Assembly (NCBI GenBank): GCA_001275005.1
Contig: JWZX01000076.1
Location: forward strand, 1 to 21,322
Source: Chrysochromulina tobinii
Lineage: Eukaryota > Haptophyta > Prymnesiales > Chrysochromulinaceae
DNA: 21,322 nt
Direction: 5' to 3'
Of this stretch, positions 4,635-20,678 are shown in pieces. Both the position numbers and the translations under genes were made by a program. The first letter of the stretch is position 1. The number at the start of each line of letters is the position of its first letter. The notes below the pieces were generated by a model. That model worked only from the letters and a program-made list of their open reading frames with translations, had not been told where the DNA came from and did no database searches.

Positions 4635-7046
4635 ATGATGATGGTGTGTCGGGCGCAGGTCCTGCTCGCTCTCCTGCTGCTCCCCACGGCGGCGCCCGCG
4701 GTGGTTGCGCTCAATGCGCGCGCGCCGCCGCCGCTGTCGCGATTGTCGACCTCCCATTCGTCCGCCGAGGTCCCCCTGCCGCCGACCGCTGAGCTCACAA
4801 CGCACGTCATAAACAATGAGCAAACCCTGGTCCCTTCGGCGGCCCATGGCGCCATGCCATTCGTCAGCATCGACGCGAGCAACCAGACGCTAAACATCCA
4901 TCCGGCCGCGCTCCACGCGCTTGCCAGCGCGCCCGCTCCCATCTGCGTCCTCTCGATTGCCGGCGCCGCCCAGGAGGGCAAGTCGGCATGGCTTAACATG
5001 TTCTCGCACTGGCTGCGCGAGCGCTGGCCGACGGTCGGCGCCACAGACGCGGGTGTCCCCTTCAAGATCGGCCGCAGCATCTTCGACGACGACTCCACGC
5101 AGGGGGCGTGGCTGCGCGTCTTCACCGGAAAGGGTACGACGGCCCGCCCCTCTCCCCCCTTGGCTCTCTATCGCGAGCCTCGCGGGCCGCCTCGCTCACG
5201 CCCTGCCCTCCCACACACTCTGCCCTGACCCCCCGCCTTGCCCTTGCGCTGGCAGAGGGGCGGCCGTTGCCAGGCACCGAGTGCATCTCGGTCGCCTTGA
5301 TCGACACGCAGGCACCGCCGCGGGCGCTCTCGCTCGACGCGGGCCCCGAGAGCGGCGTGGGCGTCAGCGCGGGCGCGCACAAGCTCTTCTCCCTTGCCAC
5401 GCTCGCCTCGTCTGTGGTGACGCTCAATGTGATGAGCCCTGCCCTGAACCTTTTCGGCCCGCTCGGTGCGATGCTTCGCGACACGCAGCGCCACCTGCTC
5501 GAGCCTGCAGCGGGTGGATTCGTGGGCGAGCCGCCCAATCTCGTGCTCCTCGAACGAGATGTGCTCCGTCCGGCGGCGTCGACGGCGGTGCTCGAGTACG
5601 CGATGCTCGAGCCGCGCGGCGACGCGCTCGACGACGCGCGCGCCGCCGTGCGCCGCCTCTTCCACAACCGAACGTTGGTACAGATGGCGCCACCCGAGGC
5701 CGCCGATCTCGACGCGATCTCGCGAGGCGAGATGCCGCCGCAGCACCGGCTGCGCAACCTGCCGCTCTCGGGCGTGCGCCCCTTTTACGCGGGCTTCGAC
5801 GCGGCGGCGAGCGCCACCGTGGGCGCTCTCCGCCCGAAGACGCTCGGCGGCATGCCCCTGCATGGACGCGAGCTGGCGGAAGCTCTCGTGGGTCTCTCGG
5901 TGGCACTCAACGAGCACGCGCCCGCGTCGCTGGCCGCCCAAGTGTACGATTCGCTGCGGGCGCAGGCCAAGGAGGCGGCTGATGCGGCGGTGCGTGCGGG
6001 TGTAAGGTCCCTCCGCCGCTTCCTTCCGTATGCTGACGCCCTCGACACCGCATTACCGGTGGGCAGCGGCGGTGGTACGAGCAGCCTGGAGGCGTCACAA
6101 ATGCGAGCACCTCGCGTGGCCCTCATGTCAGCGTCGTCGCTCGAGCTCGCGCTGCGGAACGCGACGCAGTCGGCACTCGATGTATTCGCCCAGCTGGCGC
6201 CCCGCTATGGCTCAGACCCGATGGACGGCGAGCCTGCGGGCTGGCTGGCTCCCTACTTGCGCTCTGTGCTCACTGAGCTGGGCTCTCTCTCCCGCCAGGC
6301 GCGCCAGGCGCACGTGCACGCGCAGCGCCTGTACGCGCTCGCGCGGCGCGAGCGCCAGCTGCTGCGACGTCTTCATGAGGCCGAGGCTGTGACTGCGGCA
6401 GCCGTCGAGAGCCGTGTGAAGCAGGCCCTCGCCGAGCGCCTTGACGAGCGCCTCGGGCCGGCGGCCGCGGCCGTTACACAGGCGCACAGGTCGTGGCTCC
6501 CCCATTCACCGCCACAGCATCACTCGGCGAGCGGGTCGGGCGGATTGGATGATCACTCAGCGACTTGGGACGCGACGGCCGTGCCGCAATGGGCACGTAA
6601 CCGCCAACTGCGCCAGGTACGCTTCCTAAAATGGGAGACGCTCGACCTCGCATGCAAGTGCTCACCACGGCGCCCTCTCTTGTCCACAGGATCTGCTGTC
6701 CAACCTGCTCCTCCTCGCGCTCGGGGCCTCGGCGGCTGTGTGCCCACCGGCAGCGCTCATACGGGTGGCACCCCTGATGGCGAGCGCCCCCACCGTCTTC
6801 GCCCTGATGGGTATCTATCGGCTCGCCCAGCGGCCCGTGGCCAAGGCGGCAGGCTTCTTTTGGGGCAGTGTGCGCTCTGTGAGCAGCGCCGTGCTGGGCG
6901 CCGCCTCGCGCTTGACGCAGCGGCTGGATGCATCCCTGGCCTCCCTCGTGACCGGGATCGCCGAAAACCTTGTGAACGACGAGTTTGGCCAGCAGCTTGT
7001 CTGCGGCCATAGCTTGCGAAATGTGCCGTGCGCGCCGCCGGCGTGA
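4635..7046 (+). CDS. GB1/atlastin-like large GTPase with signal peptide and C-terminal membrane hairpin
   Basis: Exons 4635-5133, 5256-6616 and 6690-7046 (stop) give 738 residues; the introns are 122 and 73 nt. Residues 1-27 form a clear signal peptide (VLLALLLLPTAAPAVVA). The GB1/RHD3-type G domain follows. The P-loop is GAAQEGKS at 110-117, and the switch I Thr sits in DDSTQGAWL (~152-160), like the family's TKGIW. G3 is LIDTQA at 182-186 instead of DTQG/DTEG, and the RD motif is in LLERDV. The middle is a long Ala/Arg-rich helical region comparable to the guanylate-binding or three-helix-bundle stalk. The third exon encodes two close hydrophobic segments (~621-665), resembling the membrane hairpin of atlastin/Sey1, then a short helical tail. 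Relatives shape ER membranes or act in defence. Here the signal peptide would place the G domain in the ER lumen or a plastid/endomembrane space, opposite to atlastin. Whether it hydrolyses GTP is open because the G3 Gly is missing. The second intron carries the shared 3' cassette. Confidence 0.75.
6650..6689 (+). repeat. Introner-like 3' cassette, copy A (GTPase intron 2)
   Basis: The 3' end of the 73-nt intron 6617-6689. Core GCATGCAAGTGCTCACCACG at 6650-6669, followed by GCGCCCTCTCTTGTCCACAG, which is the pyrimidine tract and acceptor. The same core and tail occur in two introns of the sulfotransferase gene on the other strand. GCTCACC inside the core could serve as the branch point. At this copy the bases following the 5' splice site do not resemble the next exon. 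Confidence 0.75.
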
Positions 7047-7483
7047 CACGCGCCGCCGGTGCATGCTGAGAACTACGCCAGAGGGCCACCGGATGCATGC
7101 ATGTCTACGGCGCACCCGCTGAGCGAGTCGCGCGCGTGTGTGAGATGATGTCCATGATGGGCGGCGGTGATCGATGCGAGTGTGCCGAGTGCCCGGAGTT
7201 CCTACGCGTAGTTGGGCGCCGTACAGTAACCATGTATGTTAGTAACGGGCGGTTTTCACGTTCACAGTGATTTCAAAGGTTTTGGAAAGTCAAGTCAAGT
7301 CTATACATAAACAACAGACACCATACGGAAGCCTATCGACTTGACTTGACTTGACTTGACTTGGAAAGCTCGAGAGACGGCGCGCTCTCTCGCGTCTCGG
7401 CCGGCAACGCTCCCTCTTCTCCAGCCATTCTGCTCCGTCGAGCCACACGGCTGCTGAGCTTAGCCGCAGCGCGGACGCCTGCT
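7047..7483. other. Intergenic region and leader of the carbinolamine dehydratase gene
   Basis: 437 bases. The 5' half should contain the GTPase 3' untranslated region. The 3' half holds the pentamer inverted repeat (7287-7362) and then an open stretch from about 7355 that stays in frame with the dehydratase but contains no ATG. Its translation (SSPAILLRRATRLLSLAAARTP) is Arg/Ala/Ser-rich like a transit peptide, so an unannotated upstream start or non-ATG initiation is possible. Confidence 0.4.
7287..7362. repeat. Pentamer inverted repeat, (AAGTC)3 ... (GACTT)5
   Basis: Three copies of AAGTC (7287-7301) face five copies of GACTT (7338-7362) across a 36-base AT-rich spacer containing CTATACATAA. 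The arms can pair over 15 bp in DNA (cruciform) or in transcript (hairpin). It sits about 120 bp upstream of the first ATG of the dehydratase. A (GACTT)3 run also occurs in the leader of the WDR18-like gene at 12153-12167, so this pentamer may be a recurring promoter/leader element or just a mobile microsatellite. Confidence 0.7.
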
Positions 7484-7963
7484 ATGTCGGCAGCTGGCAA
7501 CAAGTATGGCATCGCCGAGGTCGCCGGCGACGCGTCCACAACTGAAGAGCTCCAGGCGTGCAAGATTGGCGGCTGCTGCGGCAAGGATACGCCACTATTG
7601 CCAGTAGATGCCATCATGGCGAGAATGAGCGCCCTTCCAGACTGGACGCTCTCCGCCGATCAGAAAATAATCACCAAGGAATTTGTGGCCAAGAACTGGG
7701 CTGCTGCGATGGGATTCTTCAACGCTGTCAGCGAGATTGCAGAGGCTGAAGGGCATCATCCTGATTTGCATCTGACAAACTGGCGAGACGTACGCGTCGC
7801 TCTGTCGACGCATGCCATCGGCGGGCTGTCGATGCCAGATCTGGTCTTGGCGGCGAAGATCGACGCGATTGCTGTCGAGGTTTCGCCAAAATGGCTGCGC
7901 GAAAGACAAGAAGCCAAGGCGACTGGCAAGAGTGGTCAGCCCCACGACGCGGTGCTCAGCTGA
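7484..7963 (+). CDS. PCBD: Pterin-4a-carbinolamine dehydratase
   Basis: Single exon, 159 residues from the first ATG. The C-terminal ~105 residues are a complete pterin-4a-carbinolamine dehydratase domain. LPDWTLSADQKIITKEF is the first strand region. EAEGHHPDLHLTNW (His91, His92, Pro93) and STHAIGGLSMPDLVLAAKID (His110) carry the signature [EKDH]-x3-H-x-P-x5-[YW]-x9-[HW] and the catalytic histidines. The enzyme dehydrates 4a-hydroxytetrahydrobiopterin after aromatic amino acid hydroxylation, letting the pterin cofactor be recycled. In plants and algae organellar forms support folate/pterin or molybdopterin-linked metabolism. The first 45 residues are extra relative to the ~100-residue bacterial/animal enzyme and contain a small Cys cluster (CKIGGCCGK). 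The frame remains open further upstream with a transit-peptide-like sequence but no ATG. Confidence 0.92.
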   Translation: MSAAGNKYGIAEVAGDASTTEELQACKIGGCCGKDTPLLPVDAIMARMSALPDWTLSADQKIITKEFVAKNWAAAMGFFNAVSEIAEAEGHHPDLHLTNWRDVRVALSTHAIGGLSMPDLVLAAKIDAIAVEVSPKWLRERQEAKATGKSGQPHDAVLS

Positions 7964-8538
7964 ACCCTAGGGCTCTTCGCGTCGTTGTGTTTCTATTGCA
8001 TGGTATACGATAAGATCTCTAGTCGGGGCGGCGCTCCGCGGCGGCGGCGGGGGCGATCAGCCGAGCCAGCGCAACCGCCGAGCGGCCGGCGCGGTCGAGT
8101 TAGCGTAACAGGGATGCACGCGGCGACCGCCACGCGCGCCCGCACCGAAACACACGGACGCGGACTCTCATAACTTTTGTGTATATTCCTGATGTGACAT
8201 TATAATAAGGATAGCCAGTAAACGTAGGTCGTAGCGTTAAATTGCAGCGCCGCAGTATGATGACCCAAAGTCTGTGACTCCATCTGTCACCCCTCACCAG
8301 AGGAGCGGAGGAGTCCCGGGGAGGGCGTGGCAGCTACGGAGCTAACAGCTTACACTGAGCGAGCAGGGGCGAGGCCGCGAGGGCGCATGCATTACTGGCG
8401 CTCACCGCGATGCGGGCGACGAGCTCTCGGCTTAGGCGCACAGCGCAGCTTCCGCGAAGATCTGCGCCACGACGCGAGCTCACCAGCGCGCGATAGTCAT
8501 CGCGTGGCGCCGTCGAGTGATGTGTAACACCCTAGCAC
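7964..8538. other. Convergent 3' intergenic region
   Basis: 575 bases between the stops of the dehydratase (plus) and the DUF3007-like gene (minus), so it holds two 3' untranslated regions. A GGC-rich patch (8028-8100) is followed by an AT-rich patch (8168-8225, with TGTATATTCC and ATTATAATAAGG) that could contain cleavage/polyadenylation signals. No convincing coding frame or structured RNA was found. Confidence 0.5.
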
Positions 8539-9075
8539 TCAGGGCTTGGCATCGGGCTTCGTAGGGTAGATTTCGCCCATCAAGGCGTCGACCTCCTCCT
8601 CGGAGAGCTCCTCGAAGCGCTTCTGGATCACAGCATTCTCGTAGTCGCGTAGCTGCTGCGCGTACGTCATGTCCTTGTTGGCGACGCGGAAGACGTAGCT
8701 TCCTGTCCACACGACAGTGCCCACACCCACGTAGCCTATCAGGATGACGTTGCCTGCGAGCACGACGTCCCACCCAAGGTTGTCAAGCATGAACGAGTAG
8801 GCGACGAACGGCAGCACGATTCCGACGATGGACCAGAAGATGATGCCGCCTTTAGTGTTCGGGTTGAGGAAGAAGGGCAGCGACTTCTTGTCGCTCTCCG
8901 CAGGAGCAGCTAATGTTGGCGCACACGCACGCGACGTGACGGCTGCCGCCGGGAGAGGCGACAACCCGCTGATGGCAGCACGGCGCGAGGGAGCCGCAAG
9001 CGCTGACGGCGGCGTGCGGAAGCCGTGGACCACGCCGAGGCCAAGGGCGAGGAGCGGGAGCAGACGTGCCGCCAT
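8539..9075 (-). CDS. Plastid-targeted DUF3007-like thylakoid membrane protein
   Basis: 178 residues from the ATG at 9075; an upstream in-frame ATG at 9108 would add 11 polar residues in front of the signal peptide, so the shorter start is preferred. Residues 1-17 form a signal peptide (AARLLPLLALGLGVVHG) followed by Phe19 and a Ser/Arg/Ala-rich transit region. This is the two-part presequence of secondary red plastids. The mature part has two membrane segments (GIIFWSIVGIVLPFVAYSF and VVLAGNVILIGYVGVGTVVW), then the diagnostic soluble tail YVFRVANKDMTYAQQLRDYE ... AVIQKRFEELSEEEVDALMGEI. This matches the cyanobacterial/plastid DUF3007 family pattern (FRVATxxMTYxQQLKDYExAVLQKRLEEL). The biochemical role is not established by the sequence; the family is confined to oxygenic phototrophs, consistent with photosystem assembly or maintenance. 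It proves the source organism is photosynthetic or recently so. Confidence 0.85.
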   Translation of the reverse strand: MAARLLPLLALGLGVVHGFRTPPSALAAPSRRAAISGLSPLPAAAVTSRACAPTLAAPAESDKKSLPFFLNPNTKGGIIFWSIVGIVLPFVAYSFMLDNLGWDVVLAGNVILIGYVGVGTVVWTGSYVFRVANKDMTYAQQLRDYENAVIQKRFEELSEEEVDALMGEIYPTKPDAKP

Positions 9076-9228
9076 CTCTACTTCGGGAAATCTGGAAGTT
9101 TCATTCACAACACGATCGCACCAAAAGTTTCACAGACACAAGTACTCTTTTCAGTGAGCCAATGGTTAACATTATTATAGCATTCGCACCGCGAGACTAG
9201 AACAGGCAGCACTCCAACTCCTGGCGAC

Positions 9229-12034
9229 TCAAAAGACCGAAAACAAGAAGCGGGTGTCAGGTAGTGGCTGGATGAAGTCCGTCAGATGCACGAACTCGCG
9301 AAGTTCGGCGTCGTCCTCCTTGAAGGCGACGAGCTCCTGATCCCAACGCCGTCGCCACATCGCGGCTGGCTCCGCCGCCGCTCCCGCCGGGCACGGTGCC
9401 GTGCAGTGTGCCCCCGCAAGCCGCCCATCCACCACGCGCGCCGACTCGAGCGCGGCCTGGGCCAGCGCGCCAGTCTGCCGTTGCGCCGCCGCCGTCGGCT
9501 GGAGCGGCTCCCAGCACGTCTCCCAGCATGGAAGTGGCACTTTGCTGCCCGGCCTCGTATAGTCGCTCACCGGCCGATTGGCGCCCGGGTCGGCGCTCCA
9601 GCGGCGCGTACACCGAAAGCGAAGCTCGTCGGGCCCGAACTGGGCCCAGAGCGGCCAGCAGCCGACGAGGTCGAATTCTGGCACCACGTCACCTGTGGGG
9701 AAGGGGGGGGCGTGGTGAGCACTTGCATGCAGAGCGGCCAGCAGCCGCCGAGGTCGAATGCTGGCACCACGTCACCTGAACAGTTCGCGCACGAGAGTCG
9801 CGCTCGCTCGTGCGGCTTATACCAGGACGCGAGCTCGTCCACGTCCCAGATGAACCCGTTCGGTAGGGGGATCTTGTAATGGTGCGAGAGCTGCACGCCG
9901 ACGGCGCCCGCTAGGGTCCTCGGATCGAGGCTCGCCTGTGCCTTCGATTGGAGTGCGAGGGCCGCTCCAGCTTGATTCAGTAGCTGGGCGCGGCGCACGA
10001 GGGATGCTCCAGCGGCCGCGACGCGCGCGTCGAAGGCCAAGCGGGCCGCCTGATAGAGGGGCTCATCGGTCTCCATGCGGGCACACAGCCGTTGGAGCAC
10101 GGCATGCGGCGTCACCGCCCCACACGACTCCGGCTCGAACCACGCGTATCTGGTCTGCTCTGGGGCAGGCACGCCGGGGATGTCGCACGGGCCGTACCTG
10201 TGGGGTGAGGGCGCCGTGCTGAGCACTTGCATGCGTGCAGGGATGTGGCACGGGCCGTACCCAGCACAGTCCATCATGCCCGCAGGCCCTCGAGAGTCGC
10301 CCTGCCCGCGACGGCGCTTGAAGTCCGCCGCCGCCGATGCGGACTCATCCATCCTCTTACGGATGTACCTGCACGGCCATCAGAGGCAGTCAGAGAGGCC
10401 ATCAAGAGAGAGGCCATCAAGAGAGAGGCCATCAAGAGAGAGGCCATCAAGAGAGAGGCCATCCGAGAGGCCATCTAGAGAGCGACCAGAGAAGCCATCC
10501 GAAGGGCCATCTAGAGAGCGACCAGAGAGGCCATCCGAGAGGCCATCTAGAGAGCGACCAGAGAAGCATTCTCAGACCATCTCAGAGAGGCATTCCGAGA
10601 GGCCATCCGTGACCATCAGCGGCACTCTGCGGCACGCACTTGAGAAGCGCTTCTGGCGGATCGGCGGTGAGCGAGGCACAGCTGCGCTGTGTCCATCGGA
10701 TGGCCGCGTCGCGCGCCGCCTCGGTTTGTGCTGTGGAGAGCTGGCTTCGATACGCGGGCACCTGTCATGCGACCATCAGACCAAAGGTCAGCTATAAAGT
10801 CGGAGATGCGATTGGAGATGCGATTGGAGATGCGATTGGAGATGCGACTGGAGGCACTCAGACACTCCGGAGAGCTGTCGTGCGTTGTGGTGGGCACGGG
10901 CGTTGTGGCGGGCACGGGCGTTGTGGCGGGCACGGGCGTTGTGGCGGGCACCTGGAGGCCCACGAGGTCCGTCAGCAGGATCAGGAATTCGTCAAAGCGC
11001 TCAGTGACGCCCACGAGGTCGAAAGCGGCCCACATGCGTGCGAGGGCCTGGTGGTGTGGTTCGCGTAACGGCTGAACGCCCGGACCGCCGTGGCAGGCGA
11101 GAGCCATCGCCATACGCGACTGGCAGTCGAAGGGGCTGTTCCAAAAGCAGAGCGGCACGCGCTCGTTGACGAAATGGTGGTGCCACGAGATGTGGGCCAT
11201 GAGCGGATGGCGGAGCAGCGTGACGAGATTGCACCGGCAGCCGGCGCCGCGCAGCTTCGCCCGCAGCAGCAACAGGTCGGGCAACGTGTACTTGAGGAAC
11301 TGCTCGTAACCACCGCCACCGATATGTATCTCGACGGCGAGACGCATGCCGGAGAGTCCGCCGGGCTGTCGCAGCAGCGTATCGAGCCGGTGCGTCACCA
11401 TCTGGAACTGCACCTTGTTGTACCGGTTCACAAACGAGAAGAAGTCGAAGAGGCCGAGCTGCGCATGACGCTGGAAGATTGAGCGGAGCGTCGTGCCCGC
11501 TGTCTTCTCGAGATGGTGGAAGAAGACGACGGAGCAGTTGGGGAGCGGCTGCACAACCACGGCATCGGGCGGCGCTGCTGTGGGTGCCGCTGTGGGTGCT
11601 GCTGTGGACGCTGCTGCGGCCGCGGCTGCCTCGGCCTTCTCAATCGCCTCGCGCGCCTTGAGGGCTTCCACCGCCTCACGCTGCTTCCGCGCCTTCTTTG
11701 CCGCCTTCTCAGCCGCTCGCCGCTCGGCCCCAAAGCGCGCCTTCTTCGTCGCCATCTCCGCGAGCCTCTCAGCCTCGCGACGTGATCTTTTCTCCGCCTC
11801 GAGAGATTCCTCCAGCGAGCTCAGGCGCTCGTTGAGCTCCTTGGCCTCTACGAGCAACGAACTGCCACCACGCAAAGGAGCCACACTCGCCGAAGTTGTT
11901 GGCTGCATAAAGCACAGATACGCGACGATGACCACCCCAAGGAGCATGGCGACTGCTGCACCGTTGCTGCGCGTCTTGGACGAGCTGGCGGAAGCCAGGC
12001 CGGCTCGCTGAACTACTAAATCGCGCGGTTGCAT
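9229..12034 (-). CDS. Type II membrane sulfotransferase with long C-terminal extension
   Basis: Five exons on the minus strand: 12034-10952, 10761-10640, 10368-10261, 10197-9776 and 9692-9229 (stop), 732 residues. Introns are 190, 271, 63 and 83 nt. A single N-terminal membrane anchor (~26-43, AAVAMLLGVVIVAYLCF) is followed by a charged coiled-coil stem (~60-140) and a Thr/Ala/Pro linker. This is the Golgi type II architecture. The sulfotransferase domain starts with the PAPS 5'-phosphosulfate loop HHLEKTAGTTLRSIF (173-187). It has the 3'-phosphate loop LLRHPLMAHISWHHHF (273-288) and FDEFLILLTDLVGL before the first junction. This resembles the carbohydrate sulfotransferase family that includes heparan-sulfate 2-O- and galactose-3-O-sulfotransferases. 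Beyond ~420, three exons encode a Cys/Trp-rich extension I do not recognise (SCANCSGDVVPEFDLVGCWPLW; LPCWETCWEPL). Exon 2 joins exon 3 at a weaker donor (CAA|GTGCGT). Likely substrate: an algal sulfated polysaccharide or scale/wall glycan; the acceptor is unknown. Confidence 0.8.
9647..9775 (-). repeat. 46-bp direct duplication bracketing sulfotransferase intron 4, with cassette copy B
   Basis: Intron 4 spans 9775-9693 (83 nt). Its first 46 bases (9775-9730) match the first 46 bases of exon 5 (9692-9647) at 44 positions, both beginning GTGACGTGGTGCCAG. The rest of the intron (9730-9693) is cassette copy B: core GCATGCAAGTGCTCACCACG (9730-9711), then a C-rich tract and CACAG. The upstream copy supplies the donor, the cassette supplies the acceptor, and the downstream copy is kept as exon, so splicing restores one copy in frame. 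Confidence 0.85.
10177..10260 (-). repeat. 21-bp direct duplication bracketing sulfotransferase intron 3, with cassette copy C
   Basis: Intron 3 spans 10260-10198 (63 nt). Its first 21 bases (10260-10240) equal the first 21 bases of exon 4 (10197-10177) except for one C/G difference; both begin GTACGGCCCGTGC. The 3' part contains core GCATGCAAGTGCTCAGCACG (10234-10215, one change from copies A and B), then GCGCCCTCACCCCACAG. The intron length is a multiple of three and has no in-frame stop, so a retained form would add 21 residues. Confidence 0.85.
10369..10639 (-). repeat. Minisatellite filling sulfotransferase intron 2
   Basis: Most of the 271-nt intron consists of tandem units. On the plus strand there are four exact 15-mers AGAGAGGCCATCAAG (10392-10451), then about three 36-nt units built on GGCCATCTAGAGAGCGACCA (about 10468-10575), then diverged AGAGG/CCATC fragments to ~10620. 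Every unit is a multiple of three, which produces a spurious Arg/Pro/Ser-rich frame on the plus strand. Confidence 0.85.
10802..10951 (-). repeat. Two minisatellites in sulfotransferase intron 1
   Basis: Intron 1 (10951-10762, 190 nt) holds four 12-mers GGAGATGCGATT (10802-10849, last one varied) and about 3.8 copies of an 18-mer GTTGTGGCGGGCACGGGC (10884-10951), given as plus-strand units. The 18-mer block begins exactly at the 5' splice site, so each unit carries a potential GTGCCC donor in the same phase. Confidence 0.85.
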
Positions 12035-19277: not shown

Positions 19278-20678
19278 CTAATCGCCCCTATCGCCCCTGC
19301 TGCCTCGGCCGAGTTTGCCGAGAAAGTTGCCGAGGGACCCACTTTCGACGGCGCTGGGCGGCGCCAAGCGAGAGCGCTCGCCGCGCAGGTCTTCGTTCAT
19401 CGCGAGGCGAATCTCGTCTCCAGTGAGACCGCGGCCGAAGAGGTAGGCCATCTTGGTCGAGATGGCCTCGATGGTCATATCGCCGGCTGAGATGACTCCA
19501 ATGTCGAGCAGCCGGCGGCCCACCTCATAGTCGTCGAGCGAGACGGTGCCTTTGGTGCACTGCGAAGCGGCGACGACGAGCACCCCGCGCTCGATCGCGT
19601 TCTCGATGGTGCGCAGGAAGCCCGCCTTGCGCGACGGACCGTTGCCCGTACCGTAGAGCGAGAGAACGAGCCCCCGGAGCTTGGACGAGTACCGTACCTG
19701 ATGAGGGAGGCAATCAGCATGCACTCAGAGATCCGGATCCTTTCGAGTTCCGTCAATTGGGAGCTTCGACGAGTACCGTACCATGCTCTCGATGGCTGAG
19801 TCATCGAAGCCGGGCACTAGATGCAAGACCACGATAGAGGTGTCGAGCTTCAGGTGCACGCGCAGGCGCGAGGTGGGCGGCCGGCGCCAGATCGCGCGAT
19901 CGCTCGAGATGCGCGCGCCCACGGTCGCGAGTGGCGGGAAATTGGGCGTGTCGAAGGCGTCGAGGCCGTTGGAGTCCACCTTCGAGGCGCGGTTGCCTCG
20001 GAGCAGCCGATCGTTGAAGAAGATGGCGACCTCGCACAGCTCGAGCTGCGCGGCGAAGACGACCGAGATCAGCAGGTTGCGCCGCGCGTCGTTGTAGATC
20101 TCTGCGAGTGGGATCATGGATCCAGTGAGCACCACGGCCTTGCCCAGGCCCTCGAGCATGAACGAGAGCGCGGACGCCGTGTACGCCATCGTGTCCGTGC
20201 CGTGGATGATGACGAAGCCGTCGTAGTCGAAGTAGCAGTCGCGCACCTGCGTAGCCAGGCCTACCCAGTCATCGGGCCCGATGTTGGAGCTGTCGATGAG
20301 CGGATCGTACTCGACGATGTCGATCTCGGGCATCGACGGCTCGTGCATCTCGGGCATGTTACGGATGCATTGGGCCAGGTAACCCTTGAGCGGCGTGAGG
20401 CTGCCATTCTGCAACGTCATACCCATCGTGCCGCCTGTGTTGATGAGCAGCACCCGGCCGGCCCCGGGCCTGTTATCGAGCACGTCGAGGTCTGACTTCC
20501 ACCCTCGCTCGGCGTCGTCCTCCTTGCGAGAGAAGAGCGGCACCGGCCAGCTGCGCTGAGGCGGTGGCGGCGGGGCGTGCACCGCCGGGCCCTCGGCTGG
20601 CTCCTGCAGCCGCAACAATCGCAGCCGCGGCTGGCAGCTCAGCGCCGTCAGGAGGACTCGGCCGACGGGCCATCGCAT
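19278..20678 (-). CDS. Type I L-asparaginase
   Basis: Two exons, 20678-19782 and 19697-19278 (stop), 438 residues; the 84-nt intron is GT-AG, phase 0. The asparaginase fold begins at ~75: VLLINTGGTMGM carries the first catalytic Thr (TGGT, 81-84). IIHGTDTMAYTASALSF (157-173) carries the Thr-Asp pair of the second active-site motif, and AVVLTGSMIPLAEIYNDAR follows. This is the cytoplasmic type I (AnsA-like) pattern rather than the periplasmic type II. It hydrolyses asparagine to aspartate and ammonia. The first ~70 residues are extra: MRWPVGRVLLTALSCQPRLRLLRL looks like an organelle presequence, followed by a Pro-rich linker. The C-terminus ends in a Gly/Arg tail. The next exon's first 22 bases are duplicated at the start of the intron; without splicing the frame stops at 19725. 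Confidence 0.92.
19676..19781 (-). repeat. 22-bp direct duplication bracketing the asparaginase intron
   Basis: The intron spans 19781-19698. Its first 22 bases (19781-19760) and the first 22 of exon 2 (19697-19676) are identical except one base; both begin GTACGGTACTCGTC and would read VRYSSKL. The intervening 62 nt contain TGCATGC, CTGAT and CCCTCATCAG at the acceptor, faintly like the cassette seen in the other introns. Confidence 0.85.

Follow-up and report, generated by a model that had tools for sequence, protein, structure and literature searches.

Three introns in two genes of a 21,322-nt stretch of Chrysochromulina tobinii DNA (contig JWZX01000076.1; the window denotes this whole stretch) share a 20-nt core, which raises the question of how the same intron end came to stand in different genes and how the remainder of each intron was built. 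The core, assigned to cassette family 1, was confirmed at the three places given by the sequence-only reading, namely 6650-6669 on the plus strand (copy 1) and 9711-9730 on the minus strand (copy 2), both exact, and 10215-10234 on the minus strand (copy 3), with one mismatch, and each copy was likewise confirmed to be followed by a C/T-rich tract and CACAG. The core did not occur in any of 100 dinucleotide shuffles of the window (chance expectation 0), and no known RNA family was detected in the window at gathering score.

Copy 1 lies in a GBP-like GTPase gene on the plus strand (4635..7046; exons 4635-5133, 5256-6616 and 6690-7046; 738 aa), for which the GBP domain PF02263 was found in 4 of 7 homologues. 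The introner-type intron of this gene occupies 6617..6689 (plus strand, 73 nt), with the donor CAG|GTACGC and the acceptor CACAG|GATCTG. The homologue P0001 spans the whole GTPase (88% identical in the search and 93% in the alignment) and looks predicted without splicing because it reads straight through GTPase intron 1. At the introner site P0001 reads RQLRQ|DLLSN with nothing between, and since this uninterrupted sequence stands in an ORF that reads through intron 1, its DNA most likely lacks the introner, an empty site that is based on the relative's predicted protein, not on its DNA. As the ORF of a near relative has no insert there, the GTPase introner looks like a recent gain; the absence of an orthologous intron from a relative, which had been proposed as a check, was thus observed at one site in a predicted protein. 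Another homologue, P0002, is 99% identical over 61% of the query and reads into the GTPase introner.

Copies 2 and 3 lie in a sulfotransferase-like gene on the minus strand (9229..12034), modelled with four introns removed (10762-10951, 10369-10639, 10198-10260 and 9693-9775) and encoding 732 aa. The homologue search was performed with an earlier gene model lacking one exon and yielded 44 homologues, of which 11 were aligned; the protein is related to haptophyte proteins. Introner-type intron A (10198..10260, minus strand, 63 nt) contains copy 3, and introner-type intron B (9693..9775, minus strand, 83 nt) contains copy 2. Six homologues (P0008, P0009, P0010, P0012, P0014 and P0016), one of them named Prymnesium parvum, are continuous at both sites, with no insert at either, and four others (P0011, P0015, P0048 and P0049) fail to span the two. 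Because the 63 nt of intron A are in frame and stop-free if retained, its removal was argued not from the frame but from the homologues, six of which are without its extra 21 residues. At the protein level, the insertions are therefore absent from P0001 at one site and from six more distant homologues at two further sites. In P0050 the cassette is read through a few residues after YGPC, beside site A; this protein contains ACMQVLTTAPSLPTG, which agrees with the translation of a family-1 cassette.

The 5' parts of introns A and B were found to be direct copies of the exon that follows. In intron B the donor half (9731..9775, minus strand, 45 nt) repeats the exonic copy at 9648..9692 (minus strand; flank comparison and homologues) with 2 mismatches and supplies the donor GT, and in intron A the donor half (10240..10260, minus strand, 21 nt) repeats the exonic copy at 10177..10197 (minus strand; flank comparison) with 1 mismatch. 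The exonic copy of intron B encodes VPEFDLVG, of which E is present in all six full homologues and V in five of the six, whereas A and G would stand at those positions if the intronic copy were translated; the exonic copy of intron A encodes the D of YGPCD (4/6 homologues) and the intronic copy H. Because the exonic copies keep the residues of the homologues, the intronic copy is the one that has drifted. At the GTPase introner, no exon duplication was found by flank comparison, and 29 nt from the donor half of that intron have no other copy in the genome. The remaining two introns of the sulfotransferase-like gene (10369-10639 and 10762-10951), together with stretches at the loci L037 and L044, are full of short tandem units (GATTGCCTCT-like and GCCATCAAGAGA-like), and intron 10762-10951 also opens with a short repeat (GTGCCCGC) of the exon that follows it.

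The core was then counted in the 53.15-Mb assembly (2,253 contigs, the window being contig C19). Exact copies numbered 587 genome-wide against 0 for the reversed-pattern control, and matches with up to 3 mismatches numbered 2,410 against 5. In 374 of the 587 exact copies CACAGG followed 4-34 nt 3' of the core, where about 6 were expected (CACAGG was in range at 1.04% of positions in 221 kb, comprising 20 stretches not chosen for copies and the window) and the control gave 0; the other 213 exact copies had no CACAGG in range. A relaxed core, TGCTCACCACGNCGC, followed by CACAGG gave 683 matches (control 0). Acceptors in these counts are motif calls (CACAGG) and not annotated splice sites, and the copy counts are inflated, since some contigs look like haplotypes (C101 and C235 have two tails in common at the same spacing). 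The cassette was found in genes of different families, including SNF2, JmjC, DSP, GH47, GTPase and sulfotransferase-like genes, so that highly similar intron sequence recurs in many unrelated genes. The genome-wide search with 0-3 mismatches that had been suggested earlier thus gave strong enrichment at acceptor-like sites in sense orientation, the opposite of what was to be expected had the core been spread without regard to acceptors.

Convergence on a splice-signal consensus shared by the species could be considered, since the core has a branch-point-like motif at a constrained distance from the acceptor, but this explanation has virtually no probability: 20 identical nucleotides in 587 places with an empty control go far beyond splice-signal convergence, as the sequence-only reading had judged, and the core is missing from GTPase intron 1. 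Convergence was therefore ruled out by the genome counts against the reversed-pattern controls. Carriage of the cassette by a virus was also rejected. One IMG/VR contig (L051, 4200-4554) has a family-1 copy near its end but is probably chimeric, its final few hundred bases being alga-like by eye and the remainder not, and a stricter cassette pattern had no match in IMG/VR, in a search that may omit records near this genome.

The core plus tail through CACAG measured 29-53 nt in 100 copies. The cassette has a conserved start, GCATGCAAGTGCTCACCACG, followed mostly by RCGC, a variable C/T tract and CACAG; it thus holds a branch-point-like CTCAC and a 3' splice site, and no 5' splice site. CTCAC fits the general branch-point pattern yUnAy. 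Among the first 100 listed of the 374 copies, the A of CTCAC lies a median of 27 nt from the acceptor (5-95%, 22-33 nt), and the tract between the fourth tail base and CACAG is 88% C/T (1,153 of 1,303 bases). A short introner family carrying only branch point, pyrimidine tract and acceptor, as first proposed for this locus, is supported by the copy counts, the acceptor enrichment, the empty GTPase site and the six uninterrupted sulfotransferase-like homologues. Of the anatomy originally described, the 3' cassette stands; the duplicated exon on the donor side and a second cassette family had been missed.

Removal of the predicted introns appears to restore conserved proteins elsewhere in the genome. 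One spliced peptide aligns through the junction to CHD1 and CHD4 (SNF2) at LTGTPLQN, and others align through the junction to JMJD6 and DUSP26 (DSP) chains. When five spliced peptides were searched against Pfam, a domain extended over the junction in four, including GH47 (a hand-edited peptide), and the fifth gave only a sub-threshold F-box match, elsewhere than at the junction.

The exon duplication was examined in a sample of 68 unique copies (up to 4 mismatches), 65 of which had enough flank. Twenty-two of the 65, lying within 110 nt of another core, were set aside, leaving 43 isolated copies. Some of the set-aside copies form tandem arrays, so part of the copy number reflects local duplication: arrays of cassette plus exon copy, some with identical tails, were seen on contigs C8, C90 and C88 (L001-L007 and L023-L030), and C90 has up to four such units in a row. 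Against a null in which these flanks were paired wrongly in 1,806 combinations (99% threshold), the left flank was found to hold a direct copy of the right flank in 32 of the 43 isolated copies, although only 10 of these 32 also exceed the largest null score, 30. The sequence from donor to cassette is therefore mostly repeated exon. By source, duplications were scored in 22/29 copies from the 30 first-listed loci, 6/7 from the 20 stretches not chosen for copies and 4/7 from 10 short stretches picked from the match list. They are 13-48 bp long (median 32) with a median identity of 96%. The dinucleotide at the donor place was GT in 21/32, GC in 2/32, GA in 2/32 and other or undefined in 7/32, with the [CT]AG closest to the right copy serving as acceptor, a choice that favours the 23/32 GT/GC donors. 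In a recount with the first CACAG taken as acceptor, 25 of the 32 had CACAG within 44 nt (7 did not), and for 21 of these 25 the start of the right copy lies 0-3 nt before CACAG ends. Filler between the left copy and the cassette amounts to 0-32 nt, the longest being in a reverse-build copy (L049). Duplication was absent in 11 of the 43, including window copy 1 (L008), and 6 of the 11 have CACAG.

Clean introns (n = 23) were 65-95 nt long. In this small sample the length was 3n+2 in 16, 3n in 7 and 3n+1 in none; the 73-nt intron of window copy 1, which has no duplication, is 3n+1. Two copies (L015 906 and L019 192) have 100% identical duplications, yet the donor would be GA, and they are either GA-AG introns or young unspliced insertions. 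At L020 717-791 and L049 3074 the geometry is reversed: a longer element with its own donor (GYRCGTTGATTG-like start, CTGCCTT, core) is followed by a 12-13 nt repeat that would supply AG. Such an element with its own donor (TGATGACCTGCCCTT 5' of the core) was rejected as the main form; allowing up to 3 mismatches, it matched only 20 places genome-wide (control 0), several of them paired, and is thus a small side branch.

A general scan for duplications at AG|G[TC] found 87 of 4,141 sites (2.1%) against 0.8-1.6% for eight other dinucleotides, and is too unspecific alone because many of the listed sites are coding or tandem repeats. GCATGC, considered as a start common to both cassettes, gave a duplication with AG at the junction in 16/336 tests in the 221 kb, and four other palindromes under the same test gave 0/180, 8/317, 3/402 and 3/192; nothing was drawn from these figures, since the 16 include family-1 and family-2 copies and tandem repeats.

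Taken in this way, the three window copies very probably belong to a large family of "half-introners", in which a cassette carries the 3' half of the intron and duplicated exon serves as the donor half, with splicing and the mode of insertion inferred from the sequence. The mobile part would be the short cassette with its CTCAC branch-point-like site, C/T tract and CACAG, lacking a 5' splice site. It would enter an exon along with a direct duplication of 13-48 bp of the same exon, the right duplicate beginning where the exon resumes behind CACAG or 1-3 nt earlier, and the left duplicate, up to the cassette, would become the 5' half of the new intron, its initial GT or GC becoming the donor. 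Splicing out the left copy together with the cassette would restore the original mRNA. The variable duplication and the filler on the left suggest insertion at a staggered break with end fill-in, the cassette probably having been copied from a nearby copy, either as DNA or as excised-intron RNA. Selection may explain part of the pattern, since an insertion in a coding exon would persist only if it stood beside a usable donor and had a length that can be spliced, the 23 clean introns being 65-95 nt.

An ordinary DNA-transposon (MITE) introner, whose transposase inserts the cassette and whose fixed-length target-site duplication supplies the donor, would agree with the absence of the insertion from P0001, and the available text of the 2022 survey (PMC9860276) describes introners that have a high copy number and co-opt their donor from the duplicated target. 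It is nevertheless improbable here: where earlier characterised introners have duplications of 3-9 bp according to that text (PMC9860276), those of the 32/43 copies are not of a short fixed length but vary from 13 to 48 bp, 0-32 nt of filler separates left copy and cassette, and the cassette ends (GCATGCAA at the start and CCCCACAG at the end) do not look like inverted repeats by eye. A staggered break with fill-in fits better than a transposase with fixed duplication because the right end lies mostly at the intron 3' end, filler is on the left and the duplication varies in length.

Still less probable is tandem duplication in place. A potato intron has the same build in the available part of its description (PMC4974935), with an exonic donor and a duplicated intron end that provides branch site, tract and 3' splice site; moreover, the duplicated exon segment starts at the new splice site in the 21 of 25 copies counted above, and tandem arrays of cassette plus exon exist on C8 and C90, for which this process is likely. 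However, the model requires that no foreign insert stand between the copies, and here a dispersed cassette does; because the cassette occurs in different, unrelated gene families, it must also move between genes, beyond any duplication in place.

More weight, though still on the unlikely side, is given to reverse splicing or retro-insertion of excised intron RNA, in which the 3' end attacks or primes at G|GT and reverse transcription stops upstream of the branch point; this is also one possible route within the half-introner explanation. The right junction at the intron 3' end in 21/25 copies with CACAG and duplication, the varying lengths of left-junction filler and duplication, and the local clustering of tail variants agree with it. 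Tails from one contig resemble each other more than expected (p 0.002; 70 pairs at least 300 bp apart), the ACGC tail variant clusters on contigs (p 0.001) and 65 of the 70 same-contig pairs are on the same strand, all among the first 100 listed of the 374 copies. Copying from a nearby copy is pointed to by this clustering, to which duplicated gene segments could add. Against retro-insertion, the conserved block begins at GCATGC in the inspected copies with no ragged end (the copies having been found by the same core, which favours this), and for the two long fillers tested (one of 28 nt by itself, one of 23 nt together with GCATGC) the genome holds no further copy, so that no parent intron half was found. 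The idea that filler is a piece of a parent intron was rejected on this ground. Target-primed reverse transcription of SINEs and LINEs likewise leaves target duplications of variable length with one precise and one variable end; unlike these elements, the half-introner cassette is very short and has no poly(A) tail.

A fourth introner-type intron, absent from the sequence-only reading, was found in an asparaginase-like gene of the window (19698..19781, minus strand, 84 nt) and contains the cassette of family 2, GCATGCTGATTGCCTCCCTCATCAG, as an exact match at 19698..19722 (minus strand). Its donor half (19760..19781, minus strand, 22 nt) is a direct copy, with 1 mismatch, of the next exon (19676..19697, minus strand; flank comparison), and the spliced asparaginase can be aligned to L-asparaginase I chains across its junction, near which the alignment has a two-residue gap. 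The pattern GCATGCTGATTGCCTCCCTCATCAG plus the following G, allowing up to 3 mismatches, has 671 genome-wide matches (control 0), and in four of eight examined family-2 copies (up to 4 mismatches) the exon duplication scored higher than any of 56 null comparisons. The two cassettes have GCATGC in common and otherwise look unrelated. It may be, although this is put forward tentatively, that only the 3' halves of introns move. Having no 5' splice site themselves, they would be copied into staggered breaks at places resembling G|GT, frequently in neighbouring genes, and the long exon duplication would build the donor half. Because the genome contains at least two unrelated cassettes built in this way, the process would be a general one that acts on the ends of introns, and not the habit of one transposon.

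Among known systems, the introners described by Gozashti et al. 2022 (PMC9860276, available text) are alike in that many near-identical copies create introns in coding exons. That survey requires similarity near both splice boundaries and reports target duplications of 3-9 bp for previously characterised introners, whereas the similarity here lies only in the 3' part of the intron, the 5' part being a local exon copy in 32/43. Chrysochromulina introner family 5 of the same survey carries a 5' splice site and has 4-bp duplications, a polarity that is the reverse of half-introners. The potato RdRp intron (PMC4974935, available text) resembles them in that a small exonic segment became the donor end and the 3' part is a ready-made intron end, but it was a single event recruiting 10 exonic nucleotides, in contrast to a dispersed repeat that supplies the 3' half at many sites. 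The Rogers model differs in having no foreign insert. In the available text of PMC7789003, the introner elements of Amoebophrya are also repeated introns with direct repeats at the exon-intron boundary, but these repeats are 3-5 nt, inverted repeats of 8-20 nt are present and the elements were defined within the non-canonical introns. Traces of insertion at breaks have likewise been seen in direct repeats that lie at or close to the two intron borders (PMC11782384, available text); those are 4-30 bp (mean 11.4), occur in many intron classes and have no common cassette. Among titles and abstract openings of the open-access introner literature (subscription papers and preprints lying outside), no family of half-introner build was found, the nearest being the potato case (PMC4974935). 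Half-introners are accordingly read as a new form of introner whose donor half is made by exon duplication, since the surveyed introners are similar near both ends with 3-9 bp duplications and the potato intron shares the build as a single event.

The bulk origin of new spliceosomal introns is a long-standing question, and in many apparently recent introns of this alga the contributions of host exon and cassette can still be told apart, so that the choice of donor, the minimum length of an intron and the rate at which its donor half decays are measurable in one genome. Predicted proteins that carry introner peptides, such as P0050 with its ACMQVLTTAPSLPTG, could serve to trace the family. Movement of 3' halves, if true, would bring the introner and tandem-duplication models together, and surveys based on similarity at both ends would overlook it. 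Because the 2022 survey, in its available text, requires similarity near both ends, introns built in this way would tend to be missed, and introner-driven intron gain may be underestimated.
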